Positions 54,635 to 64,000 of a stretch of 64,000 nt of DNA are shown here, one piece after another. A model generated the notes under the pieces. The model was not told the origin of the DNA and did not search any database. It saw only the letters and a program-made list of their open reading frames with translations. Position numbers and translations under genes: made by a program. Origin of the DNA: Dorea sp. GTDB lineage: Bacteria > Bacillota > Clostridia > Lachnospirales > Lachnospiraceae. Where the stretch lies: positions 62,001-126,000 of the forward strand of contig JALEKG010000090.1 of the NCBI GenBank assembly GCA_022769185.1. The letters are read 5' to 3'. Every line of letters starts with the position of its first letter. Position 1 is the first letter of the stretch.

Positions 54635-55818
54635 TTATTTTTCCACTTTTTTCTCGTGCCGTCTTCTTAATTCGGCCACATTTTCAGCTACTTTTTTTCC
54701 GATTCAGCGGATAGATGAACCACAAGATGAGTGCGCAGAGGATATAGCTGATTGCCGGGAATCCGGTTGCAATCCGGTAGATTCCGGTTTTTACGGCCTC
54801 TGTCTGGGCAACAGCCGCAGAATCATATCCGATAGCTGCAAGTGCCCATCCGCTCATTCCGCCTGCGATTGCCTGTCCAATCTTTCTCGAGAAGGAGTAC
54901 ACGCCGTAGATCATTCCATCATCACGTCTGCCGTATTTGACTTCACGGTCATCTATGACATCTGTAACCAGTGCGTAAGCCTGCATACTGAAACACTGTC
55001 TTGCAAGGATTGCAATGAAGGCAATTCCAATATATACCCATACATTTTTTATATTCAGGATAGAGATCAGAAAGTAGATAATACCTGCGGTTAAGTAGCA
55101 TACGGTTCAGCTTTCTTTCTTGCCGAATTTTGTGGTGATCGGTGTGGATACTCCAAGCAGGATCAGTGTTGCAGGAAGCGCAAGGATGGAAAATACGGAT
55201 AATGCTTTTGCATTTCCAAAGTAATCTAAAGTGTCCGGCATGTACGACCTGGTTACCGTCAGCGTCTGTGTAATAGACTACCAGAGGGGAGACTACGGTT
55301 ATGATGATCATAGCGAGCATACTTCCCAAAGAACGAAATACAGACAGAGAACTCCTGTGTTTGGGTTCATCGGAGATCACGGATGCCATAGAACCGTAAG
55401 GAATATTGATGGAGGTATAGAATACGGATCCCCAGAGAATATAGGTCACGAACATGTATGCAATTTTGACTGTCATGGACTGGTCCTGTAAAAAGGACTG
55501 ATACATTAGAAAAGAAGCAACTGCAACGGGGCCGCACATACGACGCAGCCAGCAGCGGAACTTTCCATCTTTTGACGGTTTTGAGATATCTACCAGTCTT
55601 CCCATTCCGATATCGGTGAATGCGTCCAGACATCTTGCAATCAGGAACATGGTCCCGATAACACCTGTGCTGATTCCCATTACTTTGGAATAGAATACCA
55701 TTACATAACTGCTGGCGAAGATGAAGGTAAAGTCATTTCCCAGATCCCCCATCATATAGCCAATCTTATCTTTCATACCAAAAGCTCTTACAGAAGAGCT
55801 TCCTGATTCTTTACTCAT
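54635..55818 (-). pseudogene. MFS (GPH-type) sugar:cation symporter pseudogene
   Basis: N-terminal 'MSKESGSSSVRAFGMKDKIGYMMGDLGNDFTF'; frameshift near 55230, TGA at 55107-55109, and a 7-T homopolymer shift at 54692-54698 break one coding sequence. Confidence 0.85.
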
Positions 55819-55820
55819 GA

Positions 55821-58088
55821 TCAATTCCTCCCTGCTTTTTTGATCCGATTTAACTTACGGTTTATCTTTAATACTTCCTCTTTGCTAAATTCCATTCCCG
55901 GGCCCGCCATGCCTGCCATAGAGATCAGTCGTTTGACAGACATGCCAAAGAGGAATTTCTTCATTTCCGGATTATTTAGATCCAGCTTTTGTGAACTCTC
56001 ATCTGTCTGCTTTTTACTGCGGGACTGAAGCTTCATTTTCATCAGAAGCTTCAGCATGGTAAATTTCATAAAGCGTGCGCCTTTTTTTGTCTCAAGGATA
56101 TCGCCCAGTTTATCATTGATGGAGAAATATCCTTCTGGCGCGGTGATGTCGAACCAGTTGATAACATCTCCTTTTTCCTTTAGACGGTAGTCTTCATTAA
56201 AGGTATCTACTTTATGAATGATACTTTGGTCAGTACATGTGCCTGCCTTTGCAAGAAGCTCGGTGGTTCCCTGGTTCGGAACCGTGAAATAGAAGAAGTG
56301 GTCTTCATTTTTCTGTGTTTCCAGAGTGACTCCGTTTGCCAGAAGTTCTACTTCCGGAAGATTGGAATAGACGGTTACGTTTGTAGTGTCTTCCACACGG
56401 TCAACGTATCGTTTGCCACAGATATGTACAAATGGCTCATCAGATAGCCATGCCTTATAGGCATAGAAAGCGTCTTTTTTATATTTGCGGTCGAAGGTCA
56501 TAAGACCTTTATGGTTGATTCCGTCTTCACCACCTTCCGAGCGGGCATCTGCGGCAAAATCGAACATATTCCATACATAGGTGGACCAGATATATGGTCT
56601 GGTATAAAGCTGCTTGATTAATTCTTCGTGGTAGTGTGCCTGATATTCTTCCGTATAATCGCCCTGGACAGGATCGGAACTGTGCCAGTTCAGTGCTTCA
56701 CATCCGTATTCGCTCATACTGATTGGCTTGTAGGGATATTTTTTGTGGAAGGTATCCATGAATTCCCCGTTCATCGAAGTGTCGCCGCCGTACCATCCAT
56801 AATAATGGTTGTAGGATACTACATCTGGAATATGCACATAATCTTCGTCCATACTACACATGGTAACCACAGCCTGGGTAGTGAAACGTTTCGGATCTAA
56901 CCGGTGAGCCAGATCGTTAAGGGCATGGTGGTTTTCAATCAAGGAATCGCTGATTCCGCTTCCCATAGTAATCTCATTTGACAGTCCCCACACTGCAATA
57001 CATGGATGATTGTAATTCTGGTAGATGAGCTCCTTCATCTGAAGCAAGGTGTTTTCCTGACCATTTGGAAGATGGTTGGAGATATAAGGAATCTCGGCCC
57101 AGATAATCATTCCGGCTTCATCGCAGAGATTGTAAAAATACTGGTCATGCTGATAATGAGCGAGTCGGATGGAAGTCGCGCCAAGTTCCAGAATCAGATC
57201 CAGGTCTTCTCTGTGATGCTCTGGAAGAAGTGCATTTCCGATTCCGGGACGGTCCTGATGTCTGGATACACCTCGCAGTGGGTAGCTCTCACCGTTCAGG
57301 AAGAATCCTTTGTCCGGATCAATGCGGAAAGTCCGGCATCCAAACCGTATACTTCGTTCATCCATCAGATTGCCTTCCTGGAATAATTTTACATTCAGGG
57401 TATAGAGGAAAGGGTCTTTTTTCCCGTTCCAGAGATGAACGTTTTCGATTTTAAGATCAACTGATTTTTCATCTGAAAATGCAGACTTTGAAGCAACAAT
57501 CGTGTTGCCGTCCAGGATCTGATATTCCAGAATTTCCTGGCCTGTCGATCCAGTTAAGGAGACATCTATGAAGATGAGAGCGTCTTTTCCGGTGATCTCG
57601 GGAGTGATTTTGACGCCCGGATCGCCGTAGTGGTCCAGATTAAAACGCGTTTTTTTTACACAGAGAAGATTGACATTTCGATAGATCCCGCCATAGAAGG
57701 TGAAGTCTGCTTTCTGCGGATACACGTAATCATTGGGGGAATTATCCACAGACACCAGGATGGTGTTCGTGTCTTCCAGATATTTTGTGATATTAACGCG
57801 CCAGGTTGAGTAGCCTCCGTCGTGTGATGTGATTTTCTTTTCATTGATATACAGGGATGCTGAAGAATTCGTGCCTTCGAATTCCAGATATACTTCTTCA
57901 GAATCGGGAAGAGAAGATCTGTTGAGAACTTTTTTGTAGTAACAGGTTCCACGGAAATAATCGTCCCCGCCATCCTGACCATCGATTCCGTTCCAGGTAT
58001 GGGGAAGATCAATCATTTCCCATGTGGCATCAGGATTGTTTTCCTTTGAAAATTCCCATGCCGAATTCCAGTGAATCTTTGTGTTCAT
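55821..58088 (-). CDS. glycoside hydrolase family 2 (beta-galactosidase-like)
   Basis: 'DLPHTWNGIDGQDGGDDYFRGTCYYKK', 'AVWGLSNEITMGS', 'SMSEYGCEAL', 'YVWNMFDFAADARSEGGEDGINHKGLMTFDRKYKKDAFYAYKAW'. Confidence 0.92.
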   Translation of the reverse strand: MNTKIHWNSAWEFSKENNPDATWEMIDLPHTWNGIDGQDGGDDYFRGTCYYKKVLNRSSLPDSEEVYLEFEGTNSSASLYINEKKITSHDGGYSTWRVNITKYLEDTNTILVSVDNSPNDYVYPQKADFTFYGGIYRNVNLLCVKKTRFNLDHYGDPGVKITPEITGKDALIFIDVSLTGSTGQEILEYQILDGNTIVASKSAFSDEKSVDLKIENVHLWNGKKDPFLYTLNVKLFQEGNLMDERSIRFGCRTFRIDPDKGFFLNGESYPLRGVSRHQDRPGIGNALLPEHHREDLDLILELGATSIRLAHYQHDQYFYNLCDEAGMIIWAEIPYISNHLPNGQENTLLQMKELIYQNYNHPCIAVWGLSNEITMGSGISDSLIENHHALNDLAHRLDPKRFTTQAVVTMCSMDEDYVHIPDVVSYNHYYGWYGGDTSMNGEFMDTFHKKYPYKPISMSEYGCEALNWHSSDPVQGDYTEEYQAHYHEELIKQLYTRPYIWSTYVWNMFDFAADARSEGGEDGINHKGLMTFDRKYKKDAFYAYKAWLSDEPFVHICGKRYVDRVEDTTNVTVYSNLPEVELLANGVTLETQKNEDHFFYFTVPNQGTTELLAKAGTCTDQSIIHKVDTFNEDYRLKEKGDVINWFDITAPEGYFSINDKLGDILETKKGARFMKFTMLKLLMKMKLQSRSKKQTDESSQKLDLNNPEMKKFLFGMSVKRLISMAGMAGPGMEFSKEEVLKINRKLNRIKKAGRN

Positions 58089-59511: not shown

Positions 59512-59540
59512 TTGACAGAAAATGTCGGGAGTAGTAATAT
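59512..59540 (+). promoter_or_regulatory. promoter TTGACA-N17-TAATAT
   Basis: Hexamers read directly, between the ADH stop and the ATP-grasp operon. Confidence 0.7.
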
Positions 59541-59571
59541 ACAGGTATACATTTAATTGAAAAGGGAAAGC

Positions 59572-59607
59572 AAAGGCGCCAGAAACGTTGGTTTCGGGCG
59601 CCTTTTT
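59572..59607 (+). terminator. intrinsic terminator or attenuator
   Basis: AAAGGCGCC a GAAAC gttg GTTTC g GGCGCCTTTTT. Confidence 0.85.
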
Positions 59608-59634
59608 CGTTTACCCGGACAGGAGGTGGCGGAT

Positions 59635-60948
59635 ATGAGAGAATTGATTGACCATACGGAAGGAATCAATCGCCTGCTGGCGAGATATGGTGTCAAGTTT
59701 GGATTATACAAGAATGGGAATTTCCATGAGCAGTTATTTCCGTTTGATGCAATTCCACGAGTAATCTCACATGAAGATTTTCTATATCTGGAAAAAGGTT
59801 TGATTCAGAGAGTTGATGCATTGAATCTGTTTTTGAATGACGTATATGGTGACAAGAAGATTATAAAGGATGGTGTCATTCCAGAAGAGTTTGTATTTTC
59901 CTCATCCGGATATCTTCCGGAGTGTGAGGGTATGGTTCCACCGAAAGGAATCCACAGTCATATTTCCGGGATTGATCTTGTACTTGGAAAGGATAAAGAA
60001 TGGTACATACTGGAAGATAACTTAAGAATTCCATCCGGGGCCTCTTATCCAATGATTGCAAGAGAAATCTGCAGGCAGGCATCTCCGAGAACCTTCCACA
60101 ATCATCTGATTGTAGACAACCGCAATTATGCAGAGATGCTCAGAGAGATGATGGATTATGTGAATGTTGGCGGTATTCCGGTCATTATGACGCCGGGACG
60201 TTATAATGCGGCATATTTTGAGCATTCTTTTCTGGCAGAGCGAACAGGTTGTGAACTTGCAATGTGTTCGGATCTGTTTGTAGAGAAGAATTTCTTATAT
60301 TATAAGGATTATCGTGGAGAGAAGAAGAAGGTCGGTGTGATCTACCGCAGAATTTCCGATGAGTATCTGGATCCAATGACATTTCTGCCGGAATCCCTGA
60401 TCGGTGTTCCCAATATTATGGATGTGTATAGGAGTGGCAATGTTTCTATCGTAAATGCACCGGGAAACGGGGTAGCGGATGATAAGGGCATCTATTACTT
60501 TGTACCAAGGATGATCCGGTATTATCTGGATCAGGAGCCGGTTCTTAAAAATGCTCCTACTTATCTTCCGTTTTATGAGGAAGATAAGAAATATGTTCTG
60601 GACCATCTGGATAAGCTGGTGGTCAAGGATGTGGCGGAAGCCGGCGGTTATGGAGTCATCTTTGGAAATGAACTGAGCAAAGAAAAGCTTTCGGATCTGA
60701 AGGAACTCATTGAGAGAGAATCCCGAAGATTCATTGCGCAGGAAGTGATTGATTTCCAGGATCTGAATATCATGGAAGGTGAGGAGATGGTTCCAAGAAA
60801 AGCGGATCTTCGTGCATTCGTGCTTTCTGGAAAAGAGACGAAGGTGTGGGCAAGTGGCCTGACGCGTTTCTCAAGAAAGGCAGATTCTTTTGTAGTAAAT
60901 TCATCTCAGGGAGGAGGATTTAAAGACACATGGGTATTATCTCGGTAG
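59635..60948 (+). CDS. circularly permuted type 2 ATP-grasp protein
   Basis: 'QLFPFDAIPRVISHEDFLYLEKGLIQRVDALNLFLNDVYGDKKIIKDGVIPEEFV', 'HISGIDLVLGKDKEWYILEDNLRIPSGASYPMIAREICRQ', 'VVKDVAEAGGYGVIFG'; RBS AGGAGGTGG at 59621. Confidence 0.93.
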   Translation: MRELIDHTEGINRLLARYGVKFGLYKNGNFHEQLFPFDAIPRVISHEDFLYLEKGLIQRVDALNLFLNDVYGDKKIIKDGVIPEEFVFSSSGYLPECEGMVPPKGIHSHISGIDLVLGKDKEWYILEDNLRIPSGASYPMIAREICRQASPRTFHNHLIVDNRNYAEMLREMMDYVNVGGIPVIMTPGRYNAAYFEHSFLAERTGCELAMCSDLFVEKNFLYYKDYRGEKKKVGVIYRRISDEYLDPMTFLPESLIGVPNIMDVYRSGNVSIVNAPGNGVADDKGIYYFVPRMIRYYLDQEPVLKNAPTYLPFYEEDKKYVLDHLDKLVVKDVAEAGGYGVIFGNELSKEKLSDLKELIERESRRFIAQEVIDFQDLNIMEGEEMVPRKADLRAFVLSGKETKVWASGLTRFSRKADSFVVNSSQGGGFKDTWVLSR

Positions 60949-61601
60949 AAAAATTAGACCATTTATACTGGCTTGGAAGATATACAGAACGGGTATATAC
61001 GACTCTTCGTAAATTCTATGATATTTATGATCAGATGATTGAAAGTCCGGAAGGTGCATACAGAAAGTATTGCGAAAGACTGAATATCCCGGATATTTAT
61101 GAATCCAATAAAGACTTTACATATTCATATTTATTTGATATTAAGAATCCGGATTCCATCTTTGCCAACATGGGACGGGCATTTGACAATGCAATCGTGT
61201 TGAGAGATGAGCTCAGCAGCAATGTGTTGTCCTATGTACAGCTTGCATTAGATACGCTGGGCGCAAGTGCCCAGACTACTGCGCCCCTTCTGGAATTACA
61301 ACAGGTGATTGACTATCTTCTGGCTTTCTGGGGATGTGTTGATGATTATGTGGAAGAAGAGGAATGCAGAAACATCTTGAAATGCGGAAAGTATATAGAA
61401 CGTCTGGATCTTTATATCCGCCTGGATTATAACAGAAAAGATATAGAAAAAGAATATAGCAAGCTACAAAACCGTATACAAAAAACACATATGTGCTATA
61501 ATGAAAAAAATCTGGAATGTCTTGGAAGAATGATTGAAGAAAAGGCAGACTGGAAAACTGGATATCAGGAGGCACTTGGCTATCTGGGAGGAATTATCTA
61601 G
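60930..61601 (+). CDS. alpha-E domain protein
   Basis: 'MGIISVEKLDHLYWLGRYTERVYTTLRKFYDIYDQMIE', 'LDTLGASAQTTAPLLELQQVIDYLLAFWGCVDD'; overlaps the ATP-grasp gene by 19 nt. Confidence 0.85.
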   Translation: MGIISVEKLDHLYWLGRYTERVYTTLRKFYDIYDQMIESPEGAYRKYCERLNIPDIYESNKDFTYSYLFDIKNPDSIFANMGRAFDNAIVLRDELSSNVLSYVQLALDTLGASAQTTAPLLELQQVIDYLLAFWGCVDDYVEEEECRNILKCGKYIERLDLYIRLDYNRKDIEKEYSKLQNRIQKTHMCYNEKNLECLGRMIEEKADWKTGYQEALGYLGGII

Positions 61602-61662
61602 AAAGCAGAGAACAGAAAGCATCTGAATCTGTGATCCTCAGAGATGCAGCCGAATAAAAAAG

Positions 61663-62439
61663 ATGAAAACATTAAAATTTGTATACAGAATGTCACTGCG
61701 TTTTACGGAACCGGTATGGGATCATTACTTTGCACTTCGGTGTATACCGGGAAATGATGAAAATCAGAAAATTACGATTACCAGCCGTTATGTACAGCCG
61801 ACAGACAGTATGGATGAAGTGACAGATGGTTTTGGAAATCATAAATATGTGGGCCATTACGCAGATCTTCATAGAAAATTTGAGTATGAAGTGGAAGGAA
61901 TCGCGCAGGTTGAGGGGATGAGGATCCGGAAAGAGGAGCTTCATCCGATGTATCGATATCCTTCGGAGTTTACGCAGTGTGGTCCGCAGATTCAGGCATA
62001 TGCAGACCGGATGAGCAATCTTGAAGGAACGAATCTGGAAAGAGCGATTCAGGTGATGCATCAGTTGTATGAACATTTTCAATATAAAAGTGGTGTGACG
62101 GATATTCACACGACTGCGGAAGAGGCAATGAGACTGGGACAGGGTGTGTGTCAGGATTATGCGCATATTATGATTGCGGTCCTAAGACGGATGGGAATTC
62201 CGGCCCGTTACGTCAATGGGCTTATGATTGGAGAGGGCTATACACATGCCTGGGTTGAGATTTATACCGGCGAAGGCTGGTATGGTCTTGATCCTACCAA
62301 TAATCTTCATGTGGATGATTATTACATTAAGATTGCACATGGAAGGGATTATAAAGACTGTGTTCTGGATAAAGGAAGGTTCCTAGGCATGACGGAACAG
62401 ACACAGGAAATCTATGTGAATGTGGAGGAAATGAAATGA
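61663..62439 (+). CDS. transglutaminase-like cysteine protease
   Basis: 'TTAEEAMRLGQGVCQDYAHIMIAVLRRMGIPARYVNGLMIGEGYTHAWVEIYTGEGWYGLDPTNN' (Cys/His/Asp triad). Confidence 0.94.
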   Translation: MKTLKFVYRMSLRFTEPVWDHYFALRCIPGNDENQKITITSRYVQPTDSMDEVTDGFGNHKYVGHYADLHRKFEYEVEGIAQVEGMRIRKEELHPMYRYPSEFTQCGPQIQAYADRMSNLEGTNLERAIQVMHQLYEHFQYKSGVTDIHTTAEEAMRLGQGVCQDYAHIMIAVLRRMGIPARYVNGLMIGEGYTHAWVEIYTGEGWYGLDPTNNLHVDDYYIKIAHGRDYKDCVLDKGRFLGMTEQTQEIYVNVEEMK

Positions 62440-63374
62440 TAGAGACAGTGGTATCGATGGAGCTTCCCGTAGATGAACATCTGCGGATCCAGAAGAACCG
62501 GATTATGCCGGTCCATCCTACCGGGAAAGAAAAAAGATTTGCCGTGGTGACTGGAACGCACGGAGATGAACTGGAAGGACAGTTCGTATGCTATGAATTG
62601 CAGAGAAGGCTGAAATCAATGCCGGAACAGTTAAAAGGAATCGTAGATATTTACCCGGCTCTGAACCCGTTGGGAATTGATTCCATCACCAGAGGAATTC
62701 CCATGTTTGATCTGGATATGAACCGGATCTTTCCGGGAACAGAAGAAGGGCCAATGATGGAGACACTGGTCAAGCGTCTGATGGATGATTTTGAAGATGC
62801 GGATATGTGTGTGGATATCCATGCCAGTAATATCTTCCTGATGGAGCTTCCGCAGGTGAGGGTCAATGAAGAAACGGAGAATTTGCTGGTTCCGTATGCA
62901 AAGAAATTAAATGTAGATTTTGTATGGGTCCACAGTGCTGCTACGGTACTGGAGTCTACACTTGCTTATAGCCTGAACAAGATCGGAGTACCGACACTGG
63001 TCGTTGAGATGGGGGTTGGAATGAGAATCACCAAAACATATGGATATCAGCTGGTAGAAGGAATTCTAAATGTGATGAAAGAAATGGGAATCTGGGAAGG
63101 TCCGGTGGGAGAAGTCAGAGAACCGATCGTATCTTCCGACCGCGCGGTTGGTTATCTGAATGCGGATATGGCAGGGATTTTTGTGCCGAAGATTGAGATT
63201 GGCGATCAGGTGAAAAAAGGAGATATCCTTGGAGAAATTTTAAATCCATTGAGCGGAAATGTGGAGCAGGTGGTGGAAGCACCGATTGACGGAATGGTAT
63301 TTACCAGACGGGAGTATCCTGTCGTATATAGTGGTTCCCTTCTGGGACGGATACTGGGAGGCAGAGAAGAATGA
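62436..63374 (+). CDS. M14/succinylglutamate desuccinylase-aspartoacylase family protein (metal ligands present)
   Basis: 'VVTGTHGDELEGQFVCYEL', 'DMCVDIHASNIF', C-terminal barrel 'AGIFVPKIEIGDQVKKGDILGEI'. Confidence 0.9.
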   Translation: MIETVVSMELPVDEHLRIQKNRIMPVHPTGKEKRFAVVTGTHGDELEGQFVCYELQRRLKSMPEQLKGIVDIYPALNPLGIDSITRGIPMFDLDMNRIFPGTEEGPMMETLVKRLMDDFEDADMCVDIHASNIFLMELPQVRVNEETENLLVPYAKKLNVDFVWVHSAATVLESTLAYSLNKIGVPTLVVEMGVGMRITKTYGYQLVEGILNVMKEMGIWEGPVGEVREPIVSSDRAVGYLNADMAGIFVPKIEIGDQVKKGDILGEILNPLSGNVEQVVEAPIDGMVFTRREYPVVYSGSLLGRILGGREE

Positions 63375-64000
63375 GAAAAGAAGTATTATATTCTCTTGCA
63401 TCACCTTATCGTGAGGAGATGCAGATTACAGGATATCGGTTCGGACACGGAAGAAAAACAGCCTGCATCGTAGGGAGTATCCGGGGAAATGAAGTACAGC
63501 AGCTCTATACTTGTTCACAGCTGATCAAGAAGCTGTCGGAACTGGAAGCGGCAGGAAATATTGTATCCGGCAATGAGATTATGGTCGTGCCAAGTGTGAA
63601 CCATCACTCCATGAATATCGGCAAACGGTTCTGGGCGGTGGACAATACCGATATTAACCGGATGTTTCCTGGATATCATTTGGGTGAGACAACGCAGAGA
63701 ATTGCTGCAGGTGTATTCAATCAGGTAAAAGATTATGAATATGGAATTCAGTTTGCAAGTTTCTATATGCCGGGAGATTTTGTGCCACATGTGCGTATGA
63801 TGGATACCGGAAATCAGAGTCCAAGTCTTGCCAGTCTGTTTGGTCTTCCTTATGTTGTCATCAGAAAACCAAAGCCGATCGACACGACAACTCTCAATTA
63901 TAACTGGCAGGTGTGGGAGACCAATGCATTTTCCGTTTATACCAATGAAACGGATTGTATTGATGAAAAATCAGCCAGACAGGCAGTATCAGCCGTACTG
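63371..64000 (+). CDS. second M14/AstE-like protein, partial at window edge, zinc ligands apparently lost
   Basis: 'ACIVGSIRGNEVQQLYTCSQLIKKL', 'AVDNTDINRMFPGYHLGETTQRIAAGVFNQVKDYEYGIQFASFYMPGDF'; frame open to the window end. Confidence 0.85.
   Translation, partial: MRKEVLYSLASPYREEMQITGYRFGHGRKTACIVGSIRGNEVQQLYTCSQLIKKLSELEAAGNIVSGNEIMVVPSVNHHSMNIGKRFWAVDNTDINRMFPGYHLGETTQRIAAGVFNQVKDYEYGIQFASFYMPGDFVPHVRMMDTGNQSPSLASLFGLPYVVIRKPKPIDTTTLNYNWQVWETNAFSVYTNETDCIDEKSARQAVSAVL

Follow-up and report, generated by a model that had tools for sequence, protein, structure and literature searches.

The 64,000-nucleotide (nt) stretch analysed here, referred to as the window (Dorea sp., GenBank assembly GCA_022769185.1, contig JALEKG010000090.1, positions 62,001 to 126,000), ends in a block of five forward-strand genes. 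They encode a circularly permuted ATP-grasp protein, an alpha-E protein, a transglutaminase-like protease and two proteins of the AstE/AspA M14 family, which we call AstE1 and AstE2. The block is a fixed unit in many Lachnospiraceae and in some other Bacillota, and by its predicted promoter-hairpin leader it is a member of a set of genes that consists largely of nitrogen and amino-acid genes. We regard it as probably the form that the ATP-grasp/alpha-E/transglutaminase operon takes in Bacillota, working when nitrogen, probably glutamine, is short. A preliminary description of the same DNA had correctly recognized the five same-strand genes and their three overlapping junctions, and had missed both the nitrogen-gene leader and the parallel with the Anbu operon of Proteobacteria. 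The features, with lengths in amino acids (aa), are as follows.

59512..59540, + strand: sigma-70-type promoter (TTGACA, 17 nt, TAATAT); a comparable promoter is found in 29 of 32 block leaders
59572..59607, + strand: leader hairpin with U-run (AAAGGCGCC...GGGCGCCTTTTT), 27 nt 5' of the ATG; fold z-score -3.4, with covariation; candidate attenuator
59635..60948, + strand: circularly permuted ATP-grasp type 2, 437 aa; PF14403 (CP_ATPgrasp_2), E=1e-135
60930..61601, + strand: alpha-E protein, short form, 223 aa; PF04168 (Alpha-E), E=2e-19
61663..62439, + strand: bacterial transglutaminase-like cysteine protease, 258 aa; Transglut_core, E=5e-23
62436..63374, + strand: AstE1, AstE/AspA-type M14 zinc hydrolase, 312 aa; AstE_AspA_cat, E=5e-24
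63371..64000 in the window, ending at 64306 beyond it, + strand: AstE2, predicted AstE/AspA pseudoenzyme, 311 aa in full; AstE_AspA_cat, E=2e-10

The promoter and the stable U-run hairpin both lie in the 135-nt gap that separates the ATP-grasp gene from an upstream alcohol dehydrogenase gene, and the hairpin ends so near the start codon that there is no room for a further promoter after it. Folding and a less strict search revealed the hairpin, which a simple terminator scan had missed. The same arrangement precedes the block in distant genera, where the stems are altered yet paired; the single hairpin, with its variable loop, mostly starts ~10 nt after the -10 box. In an alignment of 28 leaders, 96% of cells pair and 8 of 13 pairs show double-sided changes, with a covariation of 0.53, compared with 0.24 in shuffled and at most 0.18 in slid versions. 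The leader as a whole (GCAAAGGCGC...GCGCCTTTTT) was seen at window positions 59512-59613 and at loci L213-L282; in most of the Lachnospiraceae sampled it stands before amtB, GSIII, asnB and other nitrogen genes.

A covariance model, R1, was trained on block leaders, some of them standing before remnants or before AstE1 alone, and its training set held no nitrogen gene. Its match at 59512-59613 (E=6.3e-6) is the best in the window's genome. Over 1.6 Mb of loci R1 gave 47 matches at E<=0.01. Of these, 44 were scored as preceding a block gene, including 19 that the training set did not contain; two of the remaining three (L081, L133) look like artefacts of open reading frame (ORF) calling. Where only the AstE pair is present, the leader can stand directly before AstE1 (L035, L107, L108; weaker in L101, L122, L144), which is consistent with the pair having inherited the control region of the block.

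The link to nitrogen emerged when R1 was run over a family sample of 150 Lachnospiraceae genomes, the same sample as was searched for AstE2 and CP_ATPgrasp_2. Matches occurred in 124 of the 150 genomes, at one to seven per genome. Among the 70 best-scoring, 56 precede nitrogen or amino-acid genes, 5 precede the block or its remnants and ~9 precede others. The downstream genes include amtB (17), type III glutamine synthetase (GSIII, 16), asnB (6), a PurF/GOGAT-type GATase (5), a branched-chain amino-acid binding protein (3), type I glutamine synthetase (GSI, 2) and carA (2), with one each of pyrG, glutamate dehydrogenase (gdh), a class III aminotransferase, a polar amino-acid ABC ATPase and a polar amino-acid ABC binding protein. 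Families of these genes were confirmed for representatives, and some names come from sequence reading only. Because no nitrogen gene was in the R1 training set, this link is independent of how the model was built. In the genome that carries the window, the next R1 match after that of the block lies before GSIII, with an E-value of 0.015 that is weak on its own; a sister genome has the leader in front of the block, GSIII, amtB and a class III aminotransferase. The leader is a candidate for a new attenuator regulon. At the gathering score, Rfam returned no known riboswitch or leader matching it. In the open-access literature we found nothing on the leader, nor on an AstE pair together with an ATP-grasp operon, and the earlier judgement that the system is under-described seems fair.

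The two AstE proteins differ sharply in their active sites, with residue roles assigned by homology with aspartoacylase. In AstE1, the zinc ligands H42, E45 and H129, the catalytic E191, and R86, N96 and R97, which bind the substrate carboxylate, are intact in 57 of 57 ATP-grasp loci; at loci without ATP-grasp nearby, a zinc ligand is lost in 7 of 40. AstE1 is conserved as a zinc hydrolase. Five AstE-only loci (L057, L059, L067, L136, L149) have the first zinc His of AstE1 replaced by Tyr, and in these lineages both members may be non-catalytic. In AstE2 the first zinc His is replaced by Arg, the second by a small or other residue, and the catalytic Glu by Tyr, in 55 of 57 block loci and in all 40 loci without ATP-grasp. 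The zinc Glu is kept, and the substrate Arg/Asn/Arg trio is retained in all. At two distant loci (L192, L193) the second copy still has its zinc site and only the catalytic Glu is gone, an intermediate state.

AstE2 is not decaying: mean column identity over 38 sequences is 73%, with many columns invariant, and for a close homologue AlphaFold gives a model that shows the AstE fold with good confidence (pLDDT 89.5). Against the PDB this model reached a TM-score of 0.76 to 3cdx_B (E=4.5e-22), and its best matches were the AstE-type structures 3cdx, DoeB and CphZ. Judged by its predicted fold and lost residues, AstE2 is a conserved pseudoenzyme of the AstE/AspA type. An active/inactive pair together with an intermediate would make a clear case of stepwise pseudoenzyme evolution.

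The remaining block proteins carry the expected motifs. All five proteins were assigned to Pfam families far over the cut-offs, the HMM check for which the preliminary description had called; at E<=0.001, neither the ATP-grasp nor the alpha-E protein matched an NCBIfam model. The ATP-grasp motifs EDN, ADDK, GGY and NSSQGGG-KDTW are kept across phyla. The start at 59635 makes this protein, at 437 aa, as long as most homologues, and a good ribosome-binding site stands before it; the ORF can also be read from a TTG at 59557. The alpha-E protein has the ER motif and lacks ~100 C-terminal residues, which are missing in the window's lineage and present in other Bacillota and in Proteobacteria; the copies at L062, L194 and L195 were noted alongside the window's copy (60930-61601). 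Its model has a pLDDT of 91.3, yet a fold search found no PDB match at E<=0.001. In the transglutaminase-like protein Cys163, His195 and Asp210 are invariant in the alignment. The overlapping junctions are ATP-grasp/alpha-E (60930/60948, 19 nt), transglutaminase/AstE1 (62436/62439, 4 nt) and AstE1/AstE2 (63371/63374, 4 nt), and a 61-nt gap separates alpha-E from transglutaminase.

The preliminary description had expected the operon to continue past the window and had suggested that further members might define the pathway. AstE2 does run on to 64306; 148 nt beyond it lies a same-strand Lon protease gene, followed by opposite-strand genes. We rejected lon as a sixth member because it adjoins the block only here and is not conserved; the operon is thus not extended by any other conserved gene. 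Elsewhere in the window, a sugar transporter gene at 54684-55824 (GPH/MFS-type by eye) is apparently split by frameshifts and adjoins a beta-galactosidase-like gene (55821-58088).

Co-conservation of the AstE genes with the rest of the block, which the preliminary description had proposed to test, is supported. AstE2 is present in 45 of the 150 family genomes at E<=0.001, ~36 of them strong matches, with AstE1 nearly always directly upstream. The AstE pair occurs in 16 of 17 genomes with ATP-grasp and in 20 of the 133 others (Fisher p=8e-11, from a hand count of strong matches, a significance that shared ancestry inflates). When 85,462 named species were scanned, more than half of the best 80 of 567 loci showed the five genes in the order seen in the window; carriers of the full block include Faecalicatena contorta, Mediterraneibacter catenae and Candidatus Blautia species. 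The five genes recur in identical order in dozens of genera and also in far Bacillota, so the block is not a chance assembly. Across a phylum sample of 300 Bacillota genomes, full-length ATP-grasp was found in 8, with the AstE pair alongside in 5. A Paenibacillus plasmid carries ATP-grasp, alpha-E and transglutaminase with neither AstE nor Anbu adjoining.

On a quick tree rooted with L192 and L193, where the direction of change depends on the root, nearly every early branch holds full blocks, and ATP-grasp presence or absence changes at least six times. The simplest reading is that the ligase part has apparently been lost repeatedly and the AstE pair retained, and remnants (a truncated alpha-E in L034 and a truncated ATP-grasp in L203) support such loss. 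In a sister genome of the same genus (G107, locus L045, 9888-11518), a 326-aa ATP-grasp stands directly before an AstE2 without its first 90 residues, and alpha-E, transglutaminase and AstE1 are absent there, by internal deletion or chimeric assembly. Full blocks and AstE-only pairs alike lie at one shared place in the genome, with an XPD/DinG-like helicase gene on one side and purL on the other (L038, L042, L046, L052, L100, L105, L118, L125). As purL is often the downstream neighbour (25 loci), we considered it as a functional partner and set it aside as positional, since the site is common to loci with and without ATP-grasp.

We give an even chance to a fuller proposal, in which the leader would be a nitrogen-responsive attenuator defining a Lachnospiraceae nitrogen regulon and the block its conjugation/deconjugation arm, with a catalytic AstE and a ligand-sensing pseudo-AstE replacing Anbu. 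On our main reading, of a block that works when nitrogen is short, RNA polymerase would read through the hairpin under such shortage. The ATP-grasp protein, with alpha-E as scaffold, would then form an amide bond on the carboxyl group of a peptide or metabolite, and the transglutaminase-like protein would cut or transfer at Gln-type or peptide amides. Within a putative complex with ligand-binding AstE2, AstE1 would hydrolyse the N-acyl amino acid formed in this way and thereby recover amino groups, AstE2 serving in ligand sensing or scaffolding. The nitrogen link says when to look for the substrate of ATP-grasp/alpha-E/transglutaminase operons, and the leader would offer a handle on nitrogen sensing in abundant gut Lachnospiraceae.

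Several points weigh against a nitrogen-responsive block of this kind. The read-through step is drawn from sequence, and no peptide substrate gene for the block was identified. In three Bacillota genomes (G169, G374, G328) ATP-grasp, alpha-E and transglutaminase occur without an adjoining AstE or Anbu. Conversely, the AstE pair stands without ATP-grasp in 44 of 114 loci, and as it survives without the ligase in several lineages it must also act independently. The pair might then be an independent amidohydrolase and functional unit, linked to the ligase block for historical reasons, and the leader is still present at some of the 44 loci. However, full blocks take the basal position on the rooted tree, and only alongside the ligase is AstE1 fully intact in every copy; we leave this explanation a small but real chance. 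The preliminary description had instead proposed a make/edit cycle, in which the protease and the two M14 enzymes take off what the ATP-grasp protein has ligated. Gene content, tight coupling, and the catalytic residues present in ATP-grasp, transglutaminase and AstE1 would all fit such a cycle in a constitutive or nutrient-neutral form. A second removing enzyme is not supported, since nearly all AstE2 homologues are without the zinc and catalytic residues; the persistence of the AstE pair after loss of the ligase part weakens an obligate cycle, and the leader links the block to nitrogen genes. We consider a nutrient-neutral cycle unlikely.

It is likewise improbable that the ligase makes an amide-rich nitrogen store that AstE1 mobilises, as CphZ does for cyanophycin dipeptides. 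The AstE/AspA fold is shared with CphZ and the regulation is nitrogen-linked, but control in common with amtB and glutamine synthetase argues for a role in shortage, when a cell draws on its stores and does not build them, and the AstE1 sequence is closer to 3cdx and DoeB than to CphZ. Finally, the hairpin resembles an intrinsic terminator, and it could be a generic strong terminator or a 5' stem that stabilises the mRNA, its sharing with nitrogen genes being coincidental. The ~9 of 70 best matches that precede other genes would fit this, and the stem may yet have a stabilising role. Against this, amtB occurs 17 times and GSIII 16 times among the 70 best matches of a model trained without nitrogen genes, far above chance for few-copy genes, and the leader is rare in flanking DNA. 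A generic hairpin therefore seems to us a poor explanation, and we continue to favour a block that works when nitrogen is short.

How does the block compare with known systems? Its ATP-grasp protein is homologous to 3n6x (PDB entry "putative glutathionylspermidine synthase"), and the logic of ligase plus amidase recalls glutathionylspermidine synthetase/amidase; unlike in that enzyme, no amidase domain is fused to the ATP-grasp, and the hydrolases are unrelated, separate genes. The AstE/AspA M14 family (3cdx, DoeB, CphZ, aspartoacylase) shares its fold with the block's AstE proteins and all zinc, catalytic and substrate residues with AstE1, and what sets the block apart is the constant pairing with a pseudoenzyme paralogue. 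ANTAR proteins control nitrogen genes by antitermination at terminator-type leaders, where the target is two hexaloop hairpins, the second overlapping the terminator. The block leader is also terminator-type and stands before nitrogen genes, but it is one hairpin with a variable loop and no room for two hexanucleotide-loop hairpins; a regulator protein was not sought.

The closest relative is the Anbu operon of Proteobacteria, which consists of ATP-grasp, alpha-E, transglutaminase and Anbu (Iyer et al. 2009, as cited in PMC5666114 and PMC6376114). The co-occurrence of the first three, which the preliminary description had noted, is borne out by the literature and by a Paracoccus control locus (L210) with the classic order of ATP-grasp, alpha-E, transglutaminase and proteasome-family peptidase. 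A double version on an Enterobacter roggenkampii plasmid (L211) has ATP-grasp, alpha-E and a transglutaminase fused to a DUF2126 amidoligase, followed by an ATP-grasp/alpha-E fusion and a second transglutaminase. In Yersinia, the ATP-grasp protein frees phosphate from ATP, and Anbu showed neither peptidase activity nor a stable complex (PMC6376114). Nitrogen recurs in this background: Burkholderia DUF404/407, DUF403 and transglutaminase genes are among NtrC- and sigma-54-dependent genes (PMC5491218), Pseudomonas putida PP_2685 (proteasome-type) and PP_2688 (ATP-grasp) are up on nitrate versus ammonium (PMC8050072), and the operon's domains track urea metabolism in marine metagenomes (PMC3597751). 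An Anbu gene at some other place in the genome could have supplied the absent peptidase; we discarded this idea, as the proteasome family (PF00227) had no match in the window's genome (G000) and 15 other Lachnospiraceae carriers (n=16); seven other Bacillota have a single match, remote from the block. The block thus shares with the Anbu operon its first three genes, including an alpha-E with the ER motif and a Cys-His-Asp transglutaminase, their order, a hydrolase in last place and nitrogen-linked regulation. It differs in its short alpha-E, in an RNA leader instead of NtrC/sigma-54 control, and in an active/inactive AstE pair where the Anbu Ntn-hydrolase stands. Two unrelated controls, NtrC in Proteobacteria and the leader in Lachnospiraceae, appear to place these operons with nitrogen assimilation. 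The AstE pair fills the last operon place in this lineage, and by analogy it may take Anbu's role.

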